Under the pieces are notes generated by a model, which worked only from the letters and a program-made list of their open reading frames with translations, was not told the origin of the DNA and made no database searches. A program made the translations under genes and the position numbers. A stretch of 64,000 nucleotides of DNA from Campylobacter sp. RM12651 (GTDB taxonomy: Bacteria > Campylobacterota > Campylobacteria > Campylobacterales > Campylobacteraceae). Where the stretch lies: positions 1,488,001 to 1,552,000 of the forward strand of contig NZ_CP059600.1 in the NCBI RefSeq assembly GCF_022369475.1, read 5' to 3'. Each line of letters begins with the position of its first letter. Position 1 is the first letter of the stretch. This document shows positions 21,336 through 32,979 of this stretch, in pieces.

Positions 21336-22442
21336 TCAATCTTCGCTACTATCCTTTTGAGCAATTAATACACCTTCTATCATTTTTTTAATATCGCCAT
21401 CAAGTATCGCATCAACTTGGCTAAATGCCTCATTGCTTCTAGCGTCTTTTACTTGCTGATAAGGAGCTAAAACATATGAGCGAATTTGATGCCCGAAACT
21501 ATTTTCGCCAACTCCTCCCGTATCTTTTCCATCGTTTAATTTCTCCATTTCAAGTTCATATAATCTTGAACGAAGCATTTTATAAGCTGTGGCTTTGTTT
21601 TTATGCTGACTTCTATCGTTTTGGCATTGCACTACAATTCCTGTTGGAATATGAGTAATTCTTACCGCACTTTCTGTCTTATTTACATGCTGACCACCTG
21701 CACCACTTGCTCTATAATAATCAATTCTTATATCTTTTTCTTCAATTTCAATTTCTATATCATCATCAATTTCAGGTGCAACGATTACGCTACAAAAACT
21801 CGTATGGCGTCTTGCATTGCTATCAAATGGGCTAATTCTTACAAGTCTATGAACCCCGTGTTCAGCCTTAAAATACCCATAAGCATTAAGCCCACGAGCA
21901 ACAAAGCTAACATCTTTTATCCCTGCTTCATCGCCTTCTTGATAATCTAGTGTTTCAACTTTAAAGCCTTCTCTTTCACAAAATCTCAAATACATTCTAT
22001 AAACAATACTCGCCCAATCATTACTCTCCGTTCCACCTGCTCCTGGGTGAATATTAATAATTGCGTTTTTAGTATCATTTTCCCCACTTAAAAGCATTGA
22101 TATTTCAAGACTTTTAATAGTTTCTTCTAAATTAGGACTATCTATAAATAAAGCTTCTAAAGTCTCATAATCATTTTCTTTCACCGCAAGTTCAAACAAC
22201 TCGCTAGTGCCTACTAATTCACTATTTGCAATTTCATATTTTGATACTAATTGATTTAATTTAGTTTTTTCTTTACCAAGCTCGGCTGCTCTTTTTGCAT
22301 CAGCCCATAATGCTGGGTCTTCTTGCTCTTTTTCTATTTCTTTTATTCTTTCTTTTGCCTCGTTTGGTTTGATTATTTTTTCTATATTGTCAAGTTTTAT
22401 TTGTAATTCTTTTAATAATTCACTAAATTCATAATTATCCAA
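21336..22442 (-). CDS. prfB: Peptide chain release factor 2
   Basis: RF2 ends translation at UGA and UAA. The 368-aa frame has the codon-recognition tripeptide SPF (204-206) and the peptidyl-transferase motif GGQ (249-251, [16 protein letters not shown]). It appears to start at TTG, six bases after GGAG. Unlike E. coli, the frame is uninterrupted, so there is no programmed +1 frameshift. It is divergent from rimO. Confidence 0.93.
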
Positions 22443-22522
22443 ATTTTGCTCCGTAGTTGTATTTTAAAGGCAAATCTTAGCTAAAATTTATTAAGATAAT
22501 AGCTTTTTTAAAAGGAATTTAA

Positions 22523-23836
22523 ATGAAATTATTTTTACAAAGTTTAGGCTGTAATAAAAACTTAGTTGATAGTGAAATTATGCTAGGTCGCTTAAAAGAA
22601 TATGAAATTACTAATGAAGCAAGTGAAGCTGATGTATTGATAGTAAATACTTGTGGCTTTATAAAAAGTGCAAAAATTGAAAGTATTAATGCTATTTTAG
22701 AACTACACGAAATTAGAAAAAAAGGCTCAATTTTAGTAGTAACTGGCTGCTTAATGCAAAGATACAAAGATGAATTGGTTAAAGAATTGCCCGAAGTTGA
22801 TTTATTTGCAGGAGTTAGCGAGTATGCAAAAATTGATGAATTAATAGCAAGTCGTGAAAGTAGATTTAGAGATTTTGTATATTTACAAGACGCAAATACT
22901 CAAAGAGTAATAACAGGCTCAAATACTCACGCTTATATAAAAATCGCTGAAGGTTGCAATCAAACCTGTAGCTTTTGTGCTATTCCTACATTTAAAGGCA
23001 AGTTAAAATCTCGCCCAATAGATGATGTAGTAGCTGAAGTTAAAGGCTTAGTTGCTAGGGGATTTTATGATTTTTCATTCATTGCTCAAGATACAAGCTC
23101 TTATTTAAAAGACTTAAAAATTAGCGATGGTTTAGAGAATTTAATTTCAGAAATTGAAAAAATTGAAGGCATAAAGGCTGCTAGAATTTTATACCTATAT
23201 CCAAGCTCAATTAAGCCTAGTTTAATTACTAAAATAATTAATTCAAAAGTATTTGTGAATTATTTTGATATGCCACTTCAACACTCAAGCGATAAATTAT
23301 TAAAAATTATGAAGCGTGGCTATGATAAGGCTAAGGCTATTAACTTTTTAGAGCAAATGAGAGCAGCTCCTAATAGCTTTTTAAGAACTGGTTTTATCGT
23401 AGGACACCCAGGAGAAAGTGAAGAAGATTTTGAAGATTTATGCGAGTTTATTAAAGAATTTGATTTTGATAGAATTAGCGTATTTGCTTATTCAAAAGAA
23501 GAAGATACCGCCGCTTACTCAATGCAACAAATCAATGCAAATACTATTAAAAGTAGGCTAAAAAAGATTGAAAAAATCGTAGACGCTAAAATCAATGCAA
23601 GTTTTGAAAAAATGCTAAATCAAGAAATAATAGCAAGTTGTTTAGGAGAATCTAGCGAAGGCGAGTTTTTTATAGGTGCTAAGCCGCTTTTATTTGATAG
23701 AGATATAGATGGAGAAATCTTAATAAATGAAAGTGAAATAGGAGAGCTAAAAGTGGGTGATTTAATAGTTTGTAAAATCACTCAAGTGCATGAAAAAACA
23801 CTAATAGCAACTGCAATTAGACGCTATGAGAATTGA
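22523..23836 (+). CDS. rimO: Ribosomal protein S12 methylthiotransferase RimO
   Basis: This radical-SAM enzyme methylthiolates an Asp of ribosomal protein S12. The N-terminal cluster cysteines are Cys10, Cys44 and Cys76; the radical-SAM cluster is Cys145-x3-Cys149-x2-Cys152 ([12 protein letters not shown]). A C-terminal TRAM-like domain ends the 437-aa protein. AAGGA precedes the ATG. It overlaps tilS by 11 nt, so the pair is co-transcribed. Confidence 0.93.
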
Positions 23837-24824
23837 ATATTTAGAAGAGCTAAAAGGTAAAAAAAACCTTTTAGCATTTTCACACGGGACTGATAGCACG
23901 GCACTTTTTTATGCACTTTTAGAACTTTGTGAGTTTGATTTATGCCTTGTGAATTATCAGACTAGAATTAATTCAAATAACGAAGAGCAAAGCGCTATAA
24001 AATTAGCAAAAGCTCATAATAAAAAAATCTTTACTAAAAAAGTAAATCTTGATAATAATAATTTTGAAAGCAATGCTAGAAAATATAGATATGACTTTTT
24101 TGATGAATTAATGCAAGATTATGATAATTTAATAGTAGCTCATAATTTAAATGATAGGTTTGAGTGGTTTTTAATGCAAATTACAAAAGGTGCGGGATTA
24201 TGCAATCTATTGGGTTTTAACGGGATTGATACAAGGAAAAATTACAAAATAATTCGCCCATTAATCAATACTAGCAAAGATGAAATTATGCTGTATTTAA
24301 ATGAGAATAGTTATGAATATTTTCAAGATGAAAGTAATTTTAATACCAAATATAAAAGAAACGAAATTAGATTAAATTATGCAAATGATTTTATAAAACA
24401 CTACGCAAATGGCATAAGAAATACTTTAAAATATTTAGAATTTGATAAGAGTAAAATATGTAAAGATAGCTTGGTTTATAAAGGAATTTATTTTTGTAAA
24501 GATGAAAATTCTTTAGATAAAGCTATTAAAAAACTAGGTTTTGTAAGCTCATCAAAGCAAAAATTAGAGCTAAAAAACCAGCTAAATAAAAACAACGAAG
24601 CCGAGCTTTATTTTAGGACTGATTGTGTTTGTGTTTGCTTTTATAAAGGATTTTTTATGGTTTTTTTAAAGGCTATTACAAAGCTTAGTAAAGAGCAAAA
24701 AGACGCTTATAGACTAGCAAAAGTGCCAAAAAATCTTAGATTTTTCCTAGCGTTAAATAATATAAAACTAAATGAATTAATAAATCTTACAAAAAACCTA
24801 AAATCAACTCATAATAATTATTGA
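23826..24824 (+). CDS. tilS: tRNA(Ile)-lysidine synthase TilS
   Basis: TilS converts C34 of tRNA-Ile(CAU) to lysidine, needed to read AUA codons, which should be frequent in such an AT-rich genome. The PP-loop reads SHGTDST (residues 19-25) in place of the common SGGx[26 protein letters not shown] and [13 protein letters not shown] are typical TilS blocks. The 332-aa length lacks the long C-terminal domains of E. coli TilS, as is usual in epsilonproteobacteria. Confidence 0.88.
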
Positions 24825-25079: not shown

Positions 25080-26378
25080 TTAATATTCATCAAAATATAT
25101 AATATCAGTATCTTCATCGTAGTTTTTATAGTATTCTAAATAAAAATCAGGCAAGGTTTTTAAACTTTCACACCCATCAAACATCTCATACATATTCTCA
25201 ACACTATTTGTGTATAAATTAATAAATTTATCAAAACTCGTGCAATCTTTAAACATCTCGCTCATATCCACTACATTTTTTGTATCAAAATCTACATATT
25301 GATTAAAACTAGAACATTTAGCAAACATCGCATTCATATTTACTACATTTTTTGTGTCAAAATCAAGCTCTTGATTAAATTTAGAACAACCCGCAAACAT
25401 AGCACTCATATCTTTTACATTGCTTGTATTAAAATCAAGCTTTTGATTAAATTCTTTACAATCATAAAACATACAATTCATATCTTCTACATTTTTGGTA
25501 TCAAAACTAAGCTTTTCATTAAAACTAGCACAGCCCATAAACATACAGCTCATATCTTTTACCTTACTAGTATTAAAATTTAAAGCTTGATTAAAGCTTT
25601 TGCAATTCCAAAACATAGACTCCATATTCATTACACTACTTGTATCAAACTCTAGCAAATGATTAAAATTCTCGTAATTAACAAACATTTGGCTCATTTC
25701 TTTTACATTTTTGGTATCAAAACTAAGCTCTTGATTAAATTTCTTACAATAAGAAAACATTTGACTCATATCTATTACATTTTTGGTATCAAAACTAAGC
25801 TCTTGATTAAATTTCTTACAATAAGAAAACATTTGACTCATATCTATTACATTTTTGGTGTCAAAATTAAGTTCTTGATTGAAATTCTTACAACCATAAA
25901 ACATTTTACTCATATTTTCCACATTGCTTGTATTAAAATCAAGCTCTTGATTAAACTCATAACAATTATAAAACATATAATTCATATCTTCTACTTTGCT
26001 AGTATTAAAGCGAATCGCTTGATTTAGCTTTTCACATCCATAAAACATTCCCTCCATACTGATTACATTTTTTGTATCAAATTTTAGCTCTTGATTAAAA
26101 TTACTGCACCGTGCAAACATTGCTGCCATATCTTTTACTTTACTTGTATTAAATTCAAGCTTTTCATTTAGATTAGTGCATCTTAAAAACATTTGTTTCA
26201 TGCTTACTACATTGCTAGTATCCCACTCGTTTATACCACTAAAATCAGTCCTTTTACTGTCTTCAAAAAGCCTACTCATATCGGTAATTAAACTTGTATC
26301 AATATCACCTAGATAAATGCTTTCATCTTTGATTAATTCTTTTAATTCTTCTTTTGTGCTTGGCTTGTATTTTTTCAT
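25080..26378 (-). CDS. DUF285 (BspA-like) repeat protein, 16 repeats, no signal peptide
   Basis: The 432-aa protein starts with a ~50-residue header (KPSTKEELKELIKDESIYLGDIDTSLI) shared with two other island proteins. About 16 leucine-rich-like units of 24 residues follow, each with an MxxMF core and an F-N-T/D-S/K-V pattern. Homologues are usually named BspA surface proteins, but there is no signal peptide or membrane segment, so this one should be cytoplasmic. The start overlaps the previous gene by 4 nt (ATGA) with AAGGAG upstream. Two adjacent repeats are identical in DNA. A scaffold or recognition role is inferred. Confidence 0.8.
   Translation of the reverse strand: MKKYKPSTKEELKELIKDESIYLGDIDTSLITDMSRLFEDSKRTDFSGINEWDTSNVVSMKQMFLRCTNLNEKLEFNTSKVKDMAAMFARCSNFNQELKFDTKNVISMEGMFYGCEKLNQAIRFNTSKVEDMNYMFYNCYEFNQELDFNTSNVENMSKMFYGCKNFNQELNFDTKNVIDMSQMFSYCKKFNQELSFDTKNVIDMSQMFSYCKKFNQELSFDTKNVKEMSQMFVNYENFNHLLEFDTSSVMNMESMFWNCKSFNQALNFNTSKVKDMSCMFMGCASFNEKLSFDTKNVEDMNCMFYDCKEFNQKLDFNTSNVKDMSAMFAGCSKFNQELDFDTKNVVNMNAMFAKCSSFNQYVDFDTKNVVDMSEMFKDCTSFDKFINLYTNSVENMYEMFDGCESLKTLPDFYLEYYKNYDEDTDIIYFDEY
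25703..25859 (-). repeat. Perfect 72-bp tandem duplication within the DUF285 gene
   Basis: Bases 25703-25774 recur exactly at 25775-25846, and the match runs on to about 25859. The unit encodes one 24-residue repeat. Neighbouring units are only similar, so this copy is recent and the repeat number may vary between strains. Confidence 0.9.
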
Positions 26379-27265
26379 ATTCTTTCTCCTTTAAAATCTA
26401 AATAAAACTTAGGCAAAGTTTCTAAACTCTCGCATTCAGCAAACATCGCATTCATATTTACTACATTGCTAGTATTAAAATCTAGCTCTTGGTTAAAATT
26501 ACTTATAAAAAACATCCCTCTCATATCCCTTACATTGCTAGTATTAAACGAAAGTTTGTTATTAAAATTACAACAAGCAAACATAAAGCTCATATCAACT
26601 ACACAAGATGTATCAAAACTAAGCTCTTCATTAAAGCCATAACAACGCAAAAACATACAACTCATATTTACTACATTACTAGTATCCCAATCATTTATCC
26701 CGCTAAAATCAGTCCTTTTGCTATCATAAAAAAGCCCACTCATATCAGCGATAAGGCTTGTATCAATGTCACCTAGATAAATGCTCTCATCATTTACTAG
26801 TTCTTTTAATTCTTCTTTTGTGCTTGGCTTTAGAGTGTTTTTGTTAGAAATTTTACGTTTTACTAAAGGCTCTTTTGGACTTAAAACTAATATTTTAAAA
26901 TCACTACCCAAGCAAGGATCAAAAAAGCATCTTTCATCATCTTTTAATCTACATTGCAATTCATCCACTGCTTCGACGTATTTAGCAAAACTATAATCCT
27001 CTGGAAGTTCTGTGCATATAATGCAAGCATTTTCTAATTTTATTGCGTCGTAATTATCATATATTTTTAATACCCCGCTTTTTATACTCTCAAGCATGTC
27101 ATCAAAATTATGATAAAAAGTATCTCCTATACCCCAACTTATAAAATCTTTTAACTGAATATTGCAAATAATCTTTAAAACAACGCTTTCTTCTACAAAC
27201 AAGCCTTCTTTGGTATATGCTTGGTTTAATTTATCTCCATATGTTTCTTTTATGATTTTTAGCAT
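26375..27265 (-). CDS. Island protein: unique N-terminal domain plus five DUF285 repeats
   Basis: This 296-aa protein has two parts. Residues 1 to ~140 form a domain not recognised by name; its second half (GVLKIYDNYDAI through DFKILVLSPKE) resembles the C-terminal ends of the 132-aa and 586-aa proteins of the same island. From ~143 the shared DUF285 header appears (KPSTKEELKELVNDE), followed by about five MxxMF repeats. There is no signal peptide. It begins its own transcription unit from a promoter nearly identical to that of the 586-aa gene, and is coupled to the 432-aa gene by a 4-nt overlap. Confidence 0.75.
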   Translation of the reverse strand: MLKIIKETYGDKLNQAYTKEGLFVEESVVLKIICNIQLKDFISWGIGDTFYHNFDDMLESIKSGVLKIYDNYDAIKLENACIICTELPEDYSFAKYVEAVDELQCRLKDDERCFFDPCLGSDFKILVLSPKEPLVKRKISNKNTLKPSTKEELKELVNDESIYLGDIDTSLIADMSGLFYDSKRTDFSGINDWDTSNVVNMSCMFLRCYGFNEELSFDTSCVVDMSFMFACCNFNNKLSFNTSNVRDMRGMFFISNFNQELDFNTSNVVNMNAMFAECESLETLPKFYLDFKGERI

Positions 27266-27288
27266 TTTTTCTCCTTTAATTTTATTGT

Positions 27289-27326
27289 AGTTATACCATA
27301 AGCGTATGCTAAAATCTGTCCATATA
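27289..27326 (-). promoter_or_regulatory. Island promoter/operator element A
   Basis: On the minus strand this reads TATATGGACA, 15 nt, TTATGGTATAACT, ending 23 nt before the 296-aa gene start. The same two boxes with the same spacing occur before the 586-aa gene. TGGACA resembles a -35 (TTGACA) and TATGGT a -10 at 16-nt spacing. TTAT-GGT-ATAA is a small inverted repeat that may be an operator. Confidence 0.6.
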
Positions 27327-27437
27327 AAAATATTTTGAAAATATTTGGAATTTAAATTCGGAATTTCATTTTAAATTTAGTCTTGGAATTTTTACTTTCA
27401 CTCTCGTAAAATCATTTAATTTAGATTAAAATACACG

Positions 27438-27470
27438 AAATAAATTCATCTCGTGCATTTGAATTTATTT
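27438..27470. terminator. Hairpin after the DUF262-DUF1524 gene
   Basis: An 11-bp inverted repeat (AAATAAATTCA/TGAATTTATTT) with an 11-nt loop starts 8 nt beyond the stop of the second DUF262 gene. It is weak and AT-only, but it separates the two transcription units of the island. Confidence 0.4.
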
Positions 27471-27478
27471 TATGTATT

Positions 27479-29392
27479 TTAAAAAGATTTTTGTAAGACT
27501 TCTAGCATTGCCTTTTGGTGGTCTTCAATTTGTGTTTTCTTCCACTCTTTGTTCTTTTCATATACATCCAATAATTTTAAGCTGATTATTTTTTTATCTT
27601 TGTTTTTATAATTGTCAAATATTCTTTTCTTTTCAGTAAATACATTATTGCTAAAAGTTGAGTTTTCACTGTCTGTTATTAGAGCTAGGTTTCCAAAATT
27701 ATTAAGCACTTTTTTATTTTCTTCATCTTTACTTAAATCTTCTAAATCATTTTGTGCTAAAACATGTTCTACTGAATTAACATATCTAAAACGATAGCTT
27801 TCATTATTATTTGAATAATTGCTAATTAACAAATAATACTCCAAACGATAAAACCAATAATGCGGGGTATTTGTGCCTTTATTTAAAAAATCAAAATTTA
27901 TGTCTTTATTTGTGCATGCTTGATTTATAAAATCATCTAAAGCTTCAATTAAATTTGAAGCACCACCAATCGTTTTGCAAGCCAAGAAATCATCAATGTT
28001 TTTTAGATATTTTCTAAGATTATCTGTATTAACACTATCTTTTAAATTATCCAAACATTCTTCTCTAGTTATTTTTTCTTTTTTCACAATTTCGTTTTTA
28101 CAAAATTCTAAGTAATGCGTTAAAAAATGATGGTAATTGGCATTATCTCCACGCCTTGCTACCCTTAGATAGTTTTGAATGGTTGCCAAATCATAAAGAC
28201 TTGTTTTATCACTATCTAACTTATCTCCAGAGTGATTATAAAATCCATAATAAGCTTTATCTTCATCTTTTATTAGCTTTTTCTTTATCACAAAGGCATC
28301 GAAGATGATTCTGTAATCTTGTAAAGCTTCTATGATTGTTTTTGCTTGCCCTTCATCCAACTTATCATTTAATTTATCCCAAGTGTTTTCAAGGAATTTA
28401 TCTTTTTTTATTGATATTTGTGTTTCTTCTTTGAAAATTTTTTTATTAGGTTCTTCTTTTAATTCTTGCCTTGATAAAATCTTAAAAACATGTAAAATAA
28501 AGGTAGGAAAATCAATTATACTCTCAAACTCGGCTCTATCTTTATCATTGTTTGAATAATTTTGTAAATATTGTTGATTTTTAATTATATTTTCAATAGT
28601 TGGCTGATGAGTTGTATTAGGGTCTTTACTATTATTTACAAAACCAAAATCTGAAAAATAATTCATCTGCGAACATTCATCAAATATCCTAGCGTATTCT
28701 GTAACTTGGCTTTTATCATTATCGCTTATTAGCTTTAATAATCTTGCCTTTAAAATGTCTGTGCCATCAAGCTGAACGCCTGTATTATTCATCCTTACGA
28801 AATATTTATTTAGTTCTACTTGATCGCCTAAAATCACTAGGTTGAACTCAACTTTAGTAAAGATAAAATCACAAAAGCTTTTTAGCTCAGCTTTTTTTAA
28901 AGACTCATCAAAACAATTAAAAGCTAATCTAATATTTGCATTTGTTTTATCAAAATCATAATTCCAAATGGCATTTTCATCATCTTCTCTAATAGGCATA
29001 TGAATTCTGCATTTATGGTTATTAGAGTTATTGTCTTCACTATTTACAAAAGCAAATTTATAAGCTTTTTCAAAATATCCTTCTGCTTTTTGCATTTTGC
29101 CATCTTCACGACACATATATACGCATAAGAAAAATATCGTGCTAAGCCTTTGCTGACCATCTACAAGCTCAAAATTATCTTCGTTGTTAGCCACTACAAC
29201 ATTTCCTATAAAATGAGCTTTGTTATTATCATTTATGCAAGTTCTAAAATCATCTAAAAGAGCTTTTATTTGCTCATCTTTCCAAGCATAAAGCCTTTGA
29301 TAGGGTGGGATTATAAATATTTTATTAAATTTATTGTTTGATAAAATTTTGCCTAAATTACAAATCTGCGAAGTTGTTTTATTTTGCTCCAT
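27479..29392 (-). CDS. GmrSD-like DUF262-DUF1524 protein
   Basis: This 637-aa protein has an N-terminal DUF262 domain: PPYQRLYAWKDEQIKALLDDF (from residue 29) and the nucleotide-site motif DGQQR (78-82). Its C-terminus has a DUF1524 HNH-type block with His543 in VEHVLAQND and GNLALITDSENSTFSNN. This is the layout of GmrSD type IV restriction enzymes, which use an NTP to cut modified phage DNA. It overlaps by 14 nt a second DUF262 gene that lacks DUF1524. A defence role is a family-based inference. Confidence 0.85.
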   Translation of the reverse strand: MEQNKTTSQICNLGKILSNNKFNKIFIIPPYQRLYAWKDEQIKALLDDFRTCINDNNKAHFIGNVVVANNEDNFELVDGQQRLSTIFFLCVYMCREDGKMQKAEGYFEKAYKFAFVNSEDNNSNNHKCRIHMPIREDDENAIWNYDFDKTNANIRLAFNCFDESLKKAELKSFCDFIFTKVEFNLVILGDQVELNKYFVRMNNTGVQLDGTDILKARLLKLISDNDKSQVTEYARIFDECSQMNYFSDFGFVNNSKDPNTTHQPTIENIIKNQQYLQNYSNNDKDRAEFESIIDFPTFILHVFKILSRQELKEEPNKKIFKEETQISIKKDKFLENTWDKLNDKLDEGQAKTIIEALQDYRIIFDAFVIKKKLIKDEDKAYYGFYNHSGDKLDSDKTSLYDLATIQNYLRVARRGDNANYHHFLTHYLEFCKNEIVKKEKITREECLDNLKDSVNTDNLRKYLKNIDDFLACKTIGGASNLIEALDDFINQACTNKDINFDFLNKGTNTPHYWFYRLEYYLLISNYSNNNESYRFRYVNSVEHVLAQNDLEDLSKDEENKKVLNNFGNLALITDSENSTFSNNVFTEKKRIFDNYKNKDKKIISLKLLDVYEKNKEWKKTQIEDHQKAMLEVLQKSF

Positions 29393-30713
29393 TTTGTTCT
29401 CCTAAAAAATGACCTAAAATTCCATATTTTTTAAATTCTTCATCTAAATAATCTTTACATAGTTCTTTATAGTCTCCACGCTTTCCACCATCGATTGGAT
29501 TTTCTGCGATCTTTTCTTGCTCATACGCATAACACTCCCTAGCTATCTCATCAAGACCTTCATAAATCTTGCTCTCGTAATTGTTTACAAATATAGCTCT
29601 TATGATTTTTTCGCTACTACCCATCGTGCTTTCCCATCGCACACTTTTACCAACAAGTCTATTTGTATAAATAATCCTTGTAGCAAATCTTATCATCTTA
29701 TCAAAATTACCACTCTTAAACCTATCCATAAACACTACAATACACATACACAATGCGTTTTGTAAATACCCTGTCCCATCTAAATGATTTAGCTTTTGAT
29801 AAAAATCTGTTTGCCTTATAATTTTCAGTATTTCATAGAATTTTCTAAAATATTCAAAAAACTCAACCCCGTTTGCAAAATCGCTAATAACCCCATAATC
29901 GCACGAACTTTGTCCTGATAAATTCTCCTTACAAAACTCATCAAATATCAAATCATCACTCCACCACTTGGTTCTTTCATACTCTTGCTTGATGATTTTT
30001 CTAGTAAAATTTAATGTTTGGTTTAAAAAACTATCGATATTGTCTTTATCGGCTTTTATAACACTTTCAAAATATTTGGCATTAGCATTTTGCAAATCCT
30101 TATGACGCTCTTGCATGGCTTGTAAATGAAAGGCTTTTATAAGGTCGTAATTTTCTAGCTTTTTTCCTTTTGAGTTGGTATTGTCAAAAAAGATAAAAGC
30201 ATCATCGGCTTTTGTTGTAGCTACTATTATAAATTGAGTTTTTTCTAGATTTTCTAAAAAATCTTTAGCCTTATCTTCATTACTTAAATAGTTTTTAATA
30301 TACTCGTAATTAGCCTTGATATTGTCTTGAGAAATTTTATGAAAAAAGCTTACATTACTTAGGTAGTTACTATATCCATTGTGATTTTCCATAACAATTT
30401 TATATTCACTTAACACCATCAGAATAAGCTTAATCGTAGTTAGCCTTTGCTGTCCGTCTATCACTTCATAAATTATCTCATCATCTCGTTTAGTTTCATG
30501 CAAAATAATAGAGCCTAGCAAGGCTCCATTTTCACTATTTTCAATATCTTTTAAAAGCATTCTTGTTTGCTTTATCTCCCATACATAAGGGCGTTGATAA
30601 TCAGGTATGCTAAGCTCTAATTCACTTGCCAAAGCACTAAAACTTGCGACATTAGAACCTACTGGATTTTTATCGCTTAGATTAAATTTAATCCCACTTT
30701 TAATCTCATTCAT
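29379..30713 (-). CDS. DUF262-only protein (GmrS-like)
   Basis: This 444-aa protein has an N-terminal DUF262 domain: SIPDYQRPYVWEIKQTRMLLKDI (from ~35) and DGQQR (86-90). A helical region follows. The C-terminus ends without a His-centred DUF1524 block, so it should bind and perhaps hydrolyse NTP but not cut DNA itself. It starts 2 nt after the 132-aa HTH gene and overlaps the DUF262-DUF1524 gene by 14 nt. The tight spacing suggests the two DUF262 proteins form a hetero-complex. Confidence 0.83.
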   Translation of the reverse strand: MNEIKSGIKFNLSDKNPVGSNVASFSALASELELSIPDYQRPYVWEIKQTRMLLKDIENSENGALLGSIILHETKRDDEIIYEVIDGQQRLTTIKLILMVLSEYKIVMENHNGYSNYLSNVSFFHKISQDNIKANYEYIKNYLSNEDKAKDFLENLEKTQFIIVATTKADDAFIFFDNTNSKGKKLENYDLIKAFHLQAMQERHKDLQNANAKYFESVIKADKDNIDSFLNQTLNFTRKIIKQEYERTKWWSDDLIFDEFCKENLSGQSSCDYGVISDFANGVEFFEYFRKFYEILKIIRQTDFYQKLNHLDGTGYLQNALCMCIVVFMDRFKSGNFDKMIRFATRIIYTNRLVGKSVRWESTMGSSEKIIRAIFVNNYESKIYEGLDEIARECYAYEQEKIAENPIDGGKRGDYKELCKDYLDEEFKKYGILGHFLGEQNGAK

Positions 30714-30715
30714 AT

Positions 30716-31114
30716 TTACTCCTTGCTAATCGCTATTATCTTTAAATCACTTTTAGGATCATAATGGGTATTGTAATATATTTTATCATCTTGCAACCTT
30801 TCTTGGAATTCTAAGAGTTCAAACATTCCTAAATCATCATTGTGTATGATATGTAATATCGTTGGGGTGCTAAAGCCTTGTATCTCATCAAAACTCTTAT
30901 ATATCCTAACTTTGCCACCATCCTTACAAACCTTACAAATCTCATCTAAAAAGCTTATAATTTCGTTTGTTGATTGGCACTCTTCTTTACTAGTCATTTC
31001 ATCTTTTATGCTTTCTATTAGCCTTCTTGCAGTGTTGTAACCTATGCCTAATTCTCTTTGCACATATGCTATGCTAGGCTTTTGTTTATAAAGTTCTTTT
31101 ACCTTTTTTAGCAT
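30716..31114 (-). CDS. Small FtsK-gamma-like winged-helix protein of the island
   Basis: The first ~40 of 132 residues (SIAYVQRELGIGYNTARRLIESI) closely resemble the FtsK gamma domain, a winged helix that reads short DNA sequences, but no ATPase is attached. Residues ~65-132 form a strand-helix-strand segment (KVRIYKSFDEI, ILHIIHNDDLGMFELLEFQERL, DLKIIAISKE) also found in the 586-aa and 296-aa proteins. It overlaps the 586-aa gene by 7 nt and is 2 nt from the DUF262 gene. It may be the operon regulator or a DNA-targeting subunit. Confidence 0.72.
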   Translation of the reverse strand: MLKKVKELYKQKPSIAYVQRELGIGYNTARRLIESIKDEMTSKEECQSTNEIISFLDEICKVCKDGGKVRIYKSFDEIQGFSTPTILHIIHNDDLGMFELLEFQERLQDDKIYYNTHYDPKSDLKIIAISKE

Positions 31115-32868
31115 TTCATCTCCTTAAAAACTATCATTTCATCTTTTGCTCTTGAATCTGTATAAATCTCAAAAGTTAATTTTGATGGGATACTACCTCC
31201 TCCATAATAGCCCAAAAATTCCCTATATTCATCACCGCTAAAATCCCTGTGAAGCCTTACCGCTACGACATTTTTAGGCTCAAACTTATAAAACTTTTTA
31301 TACTCACTAATCTTTAAAGTCTTATATTTACAAATTTGCTCATAAAACTCATCGCAATACTCATCATTATAAAAAATCTCTTCAAGCACCCTACTATCAC
31401 CCTTACAAACAAAATCATATTTATTAGCACTTATGATATGCAAAATCCCATCACCCCTTGGGCTAAGATTTGTTATCTTTTTTAGTATTTTTCTAGCCTT
31501 TATATCTAAAAAGTTTTTATACTCTAAATGATGAAGGATGGTATTTGCTCTAGCTATATCAATTTTAAGTTTAAGGCTTAGATACCTTGCGTCTATCAAG
31601 CCACCTTTATGTAAAAGCTTCTTTGCATAGTCATAAAGCTCATCTTTAAATAATGTATCCTTACCATATCTTATAAAACTTCTAGCGTTCCGACGATTTA
31701 CCACCCAAGCTCTATAAATCTTATCATTTGTGTCACATAACTCTTCATAAACATCAAAAATCCCCCTATCATAAACCACATCTATAAACTTATAAGAACT
31801 AGTTTTTGCGATCTTGCATTCTGTATTACGTCTAATTAGTGGCTCAGTAAAAACCACGCTTGAGTTTGTATGAATATCTCTTAAAGAATATAAATCGCTA
31901 GAAAATATAACTCTAGGATGTTTTAGACTAAGACAACCCATAAACATTTCATCAGCATTCTCAACGCCTTTTAAATCAAGCTTATTTATATACCTTAAAT
32001 TAGTGCAGTTTTTAAACATTCTTTTAGTGTTTCTTAGATAATTTGAAAAACAATGTGGCTTTTTTGTGATATTCATATCAAGGCTTGCAAGGTTTTTGCA
32101 CCCGTGAAACATACCTTCAGCACTTTTAAGCTTGCTAAATACTAGCTTAGGAAGGCTTTTTAGATTTATGGCGTTATTAAACATATATGAAGTATCTCTA
32201 ACTTGTCTTAACTCCCAAGATTTTAAGCCACTAAAATCACTCCTAGTGCTACCATCAAAAACAAAACTCAAATTAATTATCCTAGAAGTATCAATAAGGC
32301 TTAAATCATCTATGCAAAACACCAAAAGCTTTAACTCAAATCTGTTTTTAGGCTGATATTTTTCGCCGTTTTTTCTAATGTTTGCGTGGCGAAGTAAAAA
32401 ATCTTTGTATGATTTATGGCTATGACGATAGATATCAAAAAATGGACTTTCGCTAAGCTTTTTTAGATTTAGGTTTTTAAGCTCTAAATTATCATAATCC
32501 ATATCCACCCCAACCATAAAAAACCTAAACTCCTCACAACTTTTCATATCAAGGCTGATTTTAGTAGTGATTTTACCCATGCCATCTAAAGCTAGATTTG
32601 TTTGATTGAAAATATAAGAAAAATCCTTGCATTTGCTAGTATTTAGACAAATTTCATTTGTCAAGATGGCGTTTTCAAACATAGCTTTAACACTTAAAAC
32701 ATTGCTAAAATCCCAGTGGTTTATATCAGCTAAATCAGCTCTTTTGCTGTCTTTAAAAAGATAGCTCATATCGGTAATCACGCTTGTATCAATTAGCTTT
32801 AAATCTATTTTTGGATTTTGAACTAGTCTTGATAATTCAGCTTTGTCCTTAGGAAAATACTTTTTCAT
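31108..32868 (-). CDS. DUF285-repeat protein with C-terminal FtsK-gamma-like winged helix
   Basis: This 586-aa protein opens the island operon. It has two DUF285 headers (residues ~1-50, and ~170-225 with FELKLLVFCIDDLSLIDTSRI), each followed by degenerate repeats. A winged helix similar to FtsK gamma lies at about 409-470 (LYDYAKKLLHKGG, YLSLKLKIDIARANTILHHLEYKNFL). The C-terminal ~75 residues match the small domain of the 132-aa and 296-aa proteins. No signal peptide is seen. Combining a leucine-rich-like scaffold with a DNA-binding module suggests a cytoplasmic sensor or regulator; this is inference. Confidence 0.75.
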   Translation of the reverse strand: MKKYFPKDKAELSRLVQNPKIDLKLIDTSVITDMSYLFKDSKRADLADINHWDFSNVLSVKAMFENAILTNEICLNTSKCKDFSYIFNQTNLALDGMGKITTKISLDMKSCEEFRFFMVGVDMDYDNLELKNLNLKKLSESPFFDIYRHSHKSYKDFLLRHANIRKNGEKYQPKNRFELKLLVFCIDDLSLIDTSRIINLSFVFDGSTRSDFSGLKSWELRQVRDTSYMFNNAINLKSLPKLVFSKLKSAEGMFHGCKNLASLDMNITKKPHCFSNYLRNTKRMFKNCTNLRYINKLDLKGVENADEMFMGCLSLKHPRVIFSSDLYSLRDIHTNSSVVFTEPLIRRNTECKIAKTSSYKFIDVVYDRGIFDVYEELCDTNDKIYRAWVVNRRNARSFIRYGKDTLFKDELYDYAKKLLHKGGLIDARYLSLKLKIDIARANTILHHLEYKNFLDIKARKILKKITNLSPRGDGILHIISANKYDFVCKGDSRVLEEIFYNDEYCDEFYEQICKYKTLKISEYKKFYKFEPKNVVAVRLHRDFSGDEYREFLGYYGGGSIPSKLTFEIYTDSRAKDEMIVFKEMKC

Positions 32869-32892
32869 GCTAACTCCTTAAATATTTTATGA

Positions 32893-32930
32893 AGTTATAT
32901 CATAAAAGTAGTCCTGATTATGTCCATATA
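32893..32930 (-). promoter_or_regulatory. Island promoter/operator element B
   Basis: On the minus strand this reads TATATGGACA, 15 nt, TTATGATATAACT, ending 24 nt before the 586-aa gene start. It matches element A in both boxes, in spacing and in distance to the start codon. TTAT-GAT-ATAA is a perfect small palindrome. Confidence 0.6.
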
Positions 32931-32948
32931 GAATTTTTTAAAAAAAAT

Positions 32949-32979
32949 TTTAGGAATTTTAATTTATAAAATTCCTAAA
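32949..32979 (-). terminator. Terminator after hipO
   Basis: A perfect 12-bp stem (TTTAGGAATTTT/AAAATTCCTAAA) with a 7-nt loop starts 5 nt beyond the hipO stop. A T run follows on the minus strand. It also marks the upstream border of the island. Confidence 0.8.

Follow-up and report, generated by a model that had tools for sequence, protein, structure and literature searches.

Among described systems, the closest relatives of the locus analysed here are type IV restriction enzymes of the GmrSD/TgvAB kind. In TgvAB, encoded on VPI-2 of Vibrio cholerae, adjacent genes encode a DUF262-only subunit, TgvA, and a DUF262-DUF1524 subunit, TgvB, both of which are required for defence; the system is embedded in a type I restriction–modification (RM) operon, and its homologues commonly occur outside RM operons (PMC11411939). 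An enrichment of tetratricopeptide repeats in the vicinity of GmrSD genes has been reported (PMC4619093), so that repeat proteins next to GmrSD-type enzymes have a precedent. The DUF285/PARCEL (BspA-type) family of repeat proteins is known to be horizontally mobile, and untargeted PARCEL open reading frames (ORFs) were recorded in 2010, without a function (PMC2996958). Here we describe a block of six genes from Campylobacter sp. RM12651, within a window of 64,000 nt (NZ_CP059600.1, positions 1,488,001 to 1,552,000), that brings a TgvAB-like pair together with DUF285 and helix-turn-helix (HTH) proteins. On balance, we somewhat favour the view that this block is a mobile defence cassette with a TgvAB-like restriction core and genus-specific regulator and sensor genes. 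New here are the genus-specific HTH and leucine-rich-repeat (LRR)-like partners and the wider association of DUF285 with effectors. Proteins are named by length, and positions are those of the window:

31108–32868, minus strand: 586-aa protein, first gene of unit 1; two DUF285 (LRR-like) stretches, an FtsK-gamma-like HTH and an alpha/beta tail
30716–31114, minus strand: 132-aa HTH protein; FtsK_gamma match at residues 10-39 (30998–31087), genus-specific C-terminal domain
29379–30713, minus strand: 444-aa DUF262-only subunit (TgvA-like); YQR, DGQQR and FxxxN intact
29394–30116, minus strand: C-terminal half of 444 (DUF7834, residues ~200-440), candidate specificity half
27479–29392, minus strand: 637-aa DUF262-DUF1524 subunit (TgvB-like); DGQQR (78), His-Me-finger EHV(542)...GNLAL(567)...N
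26375–27265, minus strand: 296-aa protein, first gene of unit 2; N-terminal domain of ~140 aa weakly like 132, then DUF285
25080–26378, minus strand: 432-aa DUF285 protein; LRR-like solenoid, signal peptide not found

A nuclease pair of the GmrSD/TgvAB kind

The first-pass annotation had described 444 and 637 as a DUF262-only and DUF262-DUF1524 pair akin to GmrSD, and profile searches and intact motifs bear this out. The GmrSD_N (DUF262) profile matched both proteins (444, E = 7e-34; 637, E = 1e-31), and GmrSD_C (DUF1524) matched 637 (E = 9e-16) and was absent from 444, whose C-terminal half matched DUF7834. The DUF262 motifs were intact in both subunits, and the DUF1524 His-Me-finger motif was present in 637. 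Matches of the pair in the PDB were 9jfl (a DUF262 protein) and SspE (6jiv), and the PADLOC models matched were HEC-06, Orf5 and SspE; single-chain profiles such as HEC-06 and SspE cover mostly the N-terminal domain.

The likeness to TgvAB rests on architecture and motifs: the two genes are adjacent, on the same strand and coupled (14-nt overlap), an adjacency found also in three congeners, and the QR, DGQQR, FxxxN and His-Me motifs lie in the corresponding domains. Unlike type I-embedded TgvAB, the pair lies outside any type I RM operon, no RM genes being found in the window neighbourhood, and it has 586 and 132 before it and DUF285 genes after it. The single-chain enzymes GmrSD, BrxU, SspE and HEC-06 share the domain pair of 637 but differ in that the block encodes a second DUF262 subunit. 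By sequence, then, the core belongs to the known GmrSD/TgvAB-like kind of type IV restriction, and from the family we infer restriction activity. The pair would very probably bind foreign, probably modified, DNA with NTP hydrolysis through the DUF262 domains, and the His-Me-finger domain of 637 would, with similarly high confidence, cut that DNA.

The two halves of 444 have diverged differently. In what follows, G000 is the genome of the window itself (2.19 Mb), G001–G003 are congeners and L numbers denote loci. Identity to the G001 protein is 62-97% over the first 200 residues of 444 but only 25-40% over residues 200-440; the G002 protein is 62-95% identical throughout. At the DNA level, identity to G001 is 92% across 30120–32962, and the close match stops right at the boundary between the halves. 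By these alignments, the C-terminal half is swapped or fast-evolving. It is the natural candidate for recognition and, in the proposed mechanism, would with about even confidence set specificity. The cassette is also a testable variant of TgvAB whose possible specificity part (the C-terminal half of 444) and control parts (132 and 586) can be compared between species.

Recurrence and decay of the cassette in relatives

ORF calls and domain searches confirmed the six genes, all on the minus strand and closely packed into two units, as first annotated: unit 1 (586-132-444-637) and unit 2 (296-432), separated by a gap of 213 bp. The 586 and 132 reading frames overlap at ATGCTAA, those of 296 and 432 also overlap, and 2 nt separate 132 from 444. 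The flanks, a PP-loop tilS and an M20 peptidase, agree with the predicted position between the housekeeping genes tilS and hipO. The GC content of the block is not distinct from its surroundings; no tRNA was found within the window and no RNA family within the block.

The same genes recur at other places in the genus. In G001, the order 586-132-444-637 lies after lepB, on a contig other than that of tilS; there, 586 is frameshifted by a 1-nt deletion and a bpMoxR gene occupies the place of 296/432 at the cassette end. In G002, 132-444-657 lies beside oorC at 679 kb, with tilS at 1187 kb; 132 lacks its N-terminus owing to a stop codon, 586 was not found in that genome, a DUF285 pseudogene follows the pair at the place of 296/432, and ahead of the pair lies a third, broken DUF262 gene. 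The tilS intervals of G001, G002 and G003 lack the cassette and hold other genes, so a fixed core locus is rejected. Because the gene order recurs elsewhere and the tilS interval differs, we regard the block as a variable island and the four-gene order as its conserved unit. The earlier proposal of a mobile, island-type block with a GmrSD-related core holds, the site being empty of the block in three congeners.

The pair itself is found further afield. G003 carries a related pair (57% identical subunits) at dnaE with no 132, 586 or neighbouring DUF285 gene, and pairs without 132 or DUF285 also occur in G004, G030, G047 and G058. Because the pair occurs without 132, 586 or DUF285 in other Campylobacterota, we consider it an autonomous core, and the suggestion of one six-part system fails: a single obligate six-gene system is rejected by the autonomous pair together with the decay pattern in G001 and G002. 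Independent scatter of the six families, raised earlier as a check, applies to DUF285 and to the DUF262 pair; within the genus it does not hold for 586-132-444-637. In each of the three genomes that carry it, the gene for 132 adjoins the nuclease pair, its homologues (G001 and G002) lie directly upstream of the pair, and the 586 homologue (G001) lies directly upstream of 132. In G001 and G002 the DUF285 and HTH genes decay next to an intact pair and so look accessory to it. A collection-wide scan of genome contigs gave only two distant DUF262 matches.

Two further observations concern these sites. A DUF262 pair lies upstream of dnaE in three species (G000, C1:1222.3-1224.0 kb, L028; G001, L031; G003, L078), a hotspot at which only G001 has DUF285 genes. 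At the edge of the island site, comparison of L037 with window positions 21336–24824 revealed a sharp recombination boundary: between G000 and G001, protein identity is 98-99.5% for PrfB and RimO and 70% for the adjacent TilS.

Genus-specific HTH proteins and a shared upstream element

The first-pass annotation had assigned winged helices to 132 and 586.

31510–31647, minus strand: FtsK-gamma-like HTH of 586

An FtsK-gamma-type HTH was found in both proteins, weakly in 586, and a clear wing was not seen in the 132 model. The FtsK_gamma profile scored 31.4 bits for 132, just over the curated cut-off of 30.6, and 12.1 bits, below it, for 586; across the whole genome it ranked FtsK first (1.7e-22), 132 second (3.5e-8) and 586 third (0.34). 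Solved structures of FtsK gamma domains can be aligned with the HTH of 132 (best PDB matches 2j5p, 2j5o and 2ve8). In the model predicted from one sequence, this helical HTH (predicted local distance difference test, pLDDT, about 80) is followed by a low-confidence alpha/beta tail, mostly below 55. Alike in the HTH, 132 differs from FtsK gamma in having no motor domains, an N-terminal HTH, no predicted wing and a genus-specific C-terminal domain.

Homologues of 132 beyond FtsK were found only in G001 and G002 among 60 genomes; among 397 genomes, its C-terminal domain had G001 as sole other match and no homologue outside the genus. The C-terminal half of 586 had a homologue only in G001 among 299 genomes of the order, the other weak match being FtsK. 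Neither protein had homologues among viral contigs, nor 132 among plasmids. As far as these searches reach, 132 and 586 are confined to the genus. The N-terminus of 296 resembled 132 in pairwise comparison (E = 2.7e-5), yet with E about 2.5 in an all-ORF search; an alpha/beta domain common to 132, 296 and 586 was suspected by eye, with a similarity that is borderline for 132-296 and not significant for 132-586.

Both units are preceded by the same promoter-like element:

32894–32930, minus strand: upstream element of unit 1, TATATGGACATAATCAGGACTAC...TATGATATAAC, promoter-like
27290–27325, minus strand: upstream element of unit 2, core ATATGGACA-N21-TATAAC

The pattern ATATGGACA-N21-TATAAC occurs at exactly 2 sites in the genome (2.19 Mb), on the 5′ side of 586 and of 296, with 0 matches for the reversed-pattern control. 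G002 has a single near-identical form, on the 5′ side of its DUF285 pseudogene, and there one control with the pattern reversed matched as well. Allowing up to 3 mismatches, the 23-bp TATATGGACATAATCAGGACTAC was found in only 2 of 41 genomes, with 2 copies in G000 and 4 in G001. These copies precede 586 in both genomes, the bpMoxR gene ending the G001 cassette, a DUF285 gene after a dynamin-like operon and, in each genome, a small hydrophobic ORF beside DUF285 pairs. We used exact and 23-bp genome scans and discarded a loose 3-mismatch scan over loci as mostly noise. Because the upstream element is common to both, the two units are probably co-regulated. With a likelihood just short of even, 132 and/or 586 would either regulate transcription of both units by way of this element or serve as adaptors between the enzyme and DNA; their action on the element of both promoters is a guess.

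The hydrophobic peptide of ~47 aa (MWILGLLFILALLLFFGLGVFRLLLVVFIFLIFLAIIAKVVELLFKD) starts ~40 bp past the shared element (L025:9128-9330; L045 near 6013, minus strand) and adjoins DUF285 gene pairs; ahead of the second DUF285 gene in L025 lies an ORF like it. For the majority of other DUF285 genes in the genus, the upstream region is unlike the shared element; in L042 and L043 (G001), such genes share a different palindrome, AAAGACAC..GTGTCTTT, ~60 bp before the start codon.

DUF285 genes beside and fused to defence or conflict genes

The DUF285 profile matched 432 (E = 3e-106), 296 (6e-25) and 586 (8e-22), and most of 432 is encoded by a tandem array:

25261–26103, no strand assigned: 72-bp tandem array, 11.7 copies, 73% matches, coding for a 24-aa repeat

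Modelled from an alignment of 11 sequences, 432 forms a regular solenoid (pLDDT 88), for which the best PDB matches were the BspA-type LRR proteins 4h09 and 4fs7 (probability 1.0, E 0.003 with the top at 2.7e-3, TM 0.3-0.4); viral DUF285 proteins matched the model far better. A hydropathy scan found no signal or membrane segment in 586, 296 or 432, and the three are predicted to be cytosolic LRR-like solenoids. They resemble known PARCEL/DUF285 proteins in their 24-aa repeats from 72-bp tandem DNA and LRR-like solenoid, and differ in being cytosolic and operonic with nuclease and HTH genes (PMC2996958). In the proposed mechanism, the solenoids of 586, 296 and 432 would, though this is doubtful, bind a phage- or stress-derived protein and so tune the response. 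We only infer the regulator role of 132 and 586 and the sensor role of the DUF285 proteins.

DUF285 was matched in 15 of 60 relatives, as multi-copy, scattered genes with some broken copies, including one in G002. In the genus and in G004, G007, G022 and G048, 11-12 of ~23 cytosolic DUF285 loci, counted by eye and not independent of one another, adjoin or are fused to a defence or conflict gene. DUF285 genes stand beside GmrSD pairs in G000, G001 and G002 and beside PDC-M09A in G000; in G001 they accompany BrxU/HEC-05 with WYL, Wadjet JetA3 with a type IIG RM gene, and a type II RM system; in G003 they twice adjoin Leo-like GTPases; G007 has a DarT-DUF285 fusion with PDC-S26 nearby, and G048 has PDC-S26 with WYL beside DUF285. 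As a control, 56 other window proteins gave only ABC-, helicase-, ATPase- and regulator-type matches. Given the clustering of defence islands, this association is a lead, not proof. Among 38 papers that name DUF285, titles and abstracts show no apparent tie to bacterial immunity.

Several of these loci deserve separate mention. The G007 fusion (L054:5005-6939) joins DarT, an ssDNA thymidine ADP-ribosyltransferase, to DUF285 repeats with no adjoining DarG antitoxin gene, and the nearby PDC-S26 gene (L054:8566-9864) is of PD-(D/E)XK type. In G022 (L107:3434-6575), a bpMoxR AAA+ ATPase-DUF285 fusion has a vWA gene and a WYL regulator after it; the locus may be a MoxR-vWA conflict system in which DUF285 replaces the beta-propeller. 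Such systems (PMC7159879) resemble this locus, and the bpMoxR gene after the G001 cassette, and differ from the island in the window, which lacks MoxR and vWA.

DUF285 repeat proteins are mostly classed as surface or virulence proteins. More speculatively, cytosolic DUF285/PARCEL could be an exchangeable LRR-like recognition module of intracellular immunity in Campylobacterota that plugs into unrelated effectors, the six-gene block being one such plug-in with FtsK-gamma-type HTH adaptors. Equally speculative are the proposed routes, by fusion (DarT, bpMoxR AAA+) or as neighbours (GmrSD-like, BrxU, Wadjet, Leo-like GTPases, PDC-M09A, PDC-S26). This idea likens the LRR-like sensors to NLR and Toll-like receptor immunity; if it is true, a variable cytosolic LRR-like protein that shares operons with, or is fused to, several unrelated conflict effectors would be the bacterial counterpart of immune receptors with leucine-rich repeats.

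Alternative explanations

Some observations weigh against a defence cassette with dedicated partners. In G001 and G002 the DUF285 and HTH parts are the first to decay, with the nuclease pair still intact, and elsewhere the pair exists in genomes that lack the other genes; the DUF285 and HTH genes may therefore be hitchhikers. The C-terminal domain of 132 gives no confident predicted fold, the host FtsK differs from 132 at a contact position for the FtsK-orienting polar sequences (R1300, below), and the shared element may be no more than a trace of the common ancestry of two DUF285 promoters.

The strongest rival, which we nevertheless think unlikely, is a composite hotspot: the DUF262 pair alone would provide defence, 132 would simply regulate its own gene, and the DUF285 genes would be mobile repeat passengers with no relation to the pair, gathered in the same variable spots. 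The autonomy of the pair and the multi-copy, scattered, partly broken and horizontally mobile (PMC2996958) nature of DUF285 genes speak for it; the retention of the 586-132-pair order at different places, the DUF285-HTH fusion within the operon, the upstream element common and unique to both units, and the fusions of DUF285 to DarT and bpMoxR elsewhere speak against it.

Repeat scaffolds act as inhibitors in other systems. The DUF285 proteins might likewise be antitoxin- or immunity-like, holding effectors off rather than switching them on, as the DarT-DUF285 fusion without an adjoining DarG gene would suggest; in addition, a C. coli plasmid (CP059370, L057) carries a DUF285 gene in a type VI secretion-linked array with AHH-domain, ankyrin and immunity genes. 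We consider this improbable: the pair is intact in G002, where the linked DUF285 gene is a pseudogene, and in G003, which has none linked, and therefore needs no neutralising by a linked DUF285 copy.

A still poorer account has 132 and 586 bind skewed chromosomal motifs like the FtsK-orienting polar sequences (KOPS), marking self DNA or positioning the nuclease. R1300, E1303 and E1306 are named for KOPS recognition in Escherichia coli FtsK, and loss of R1300 or E1303 impairs that recognition (PMC2680272); the FtsK-gamma-aligned HTH of 132 keeps the equivalents of both. However, 132 has K at the E1306 position, 586 keeps none of the three, and at the R1300 position even the host's own FtsK is different, so promoter control is at least as likely as KOPS binding for 132; moreover, there is no translocase domain, and such an HTH could bind any site.

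That the DUF285 genes encode BspA-family surface proteins unrelated to defence, as the database name of the family and the signal-peptide-like N-termini of copies in G053, G041, G059 and G046 might suggest, is rejected for the three island proteins, which lack a signal or membrane anchor by hydropathy scan and of which 586 carries a DNA-binding domain, leaving this the least credible account.

DUF285 genes also occur on other replicons. A 123-kb replicon with two more DUF285 genes was matched closely only over a short stretch of replication genes, and an 86-kb C. jejuni plasmid (NZ_CP038863; L056/L092) carries a long BspA/DUF285 gene array beside conjugation genes.

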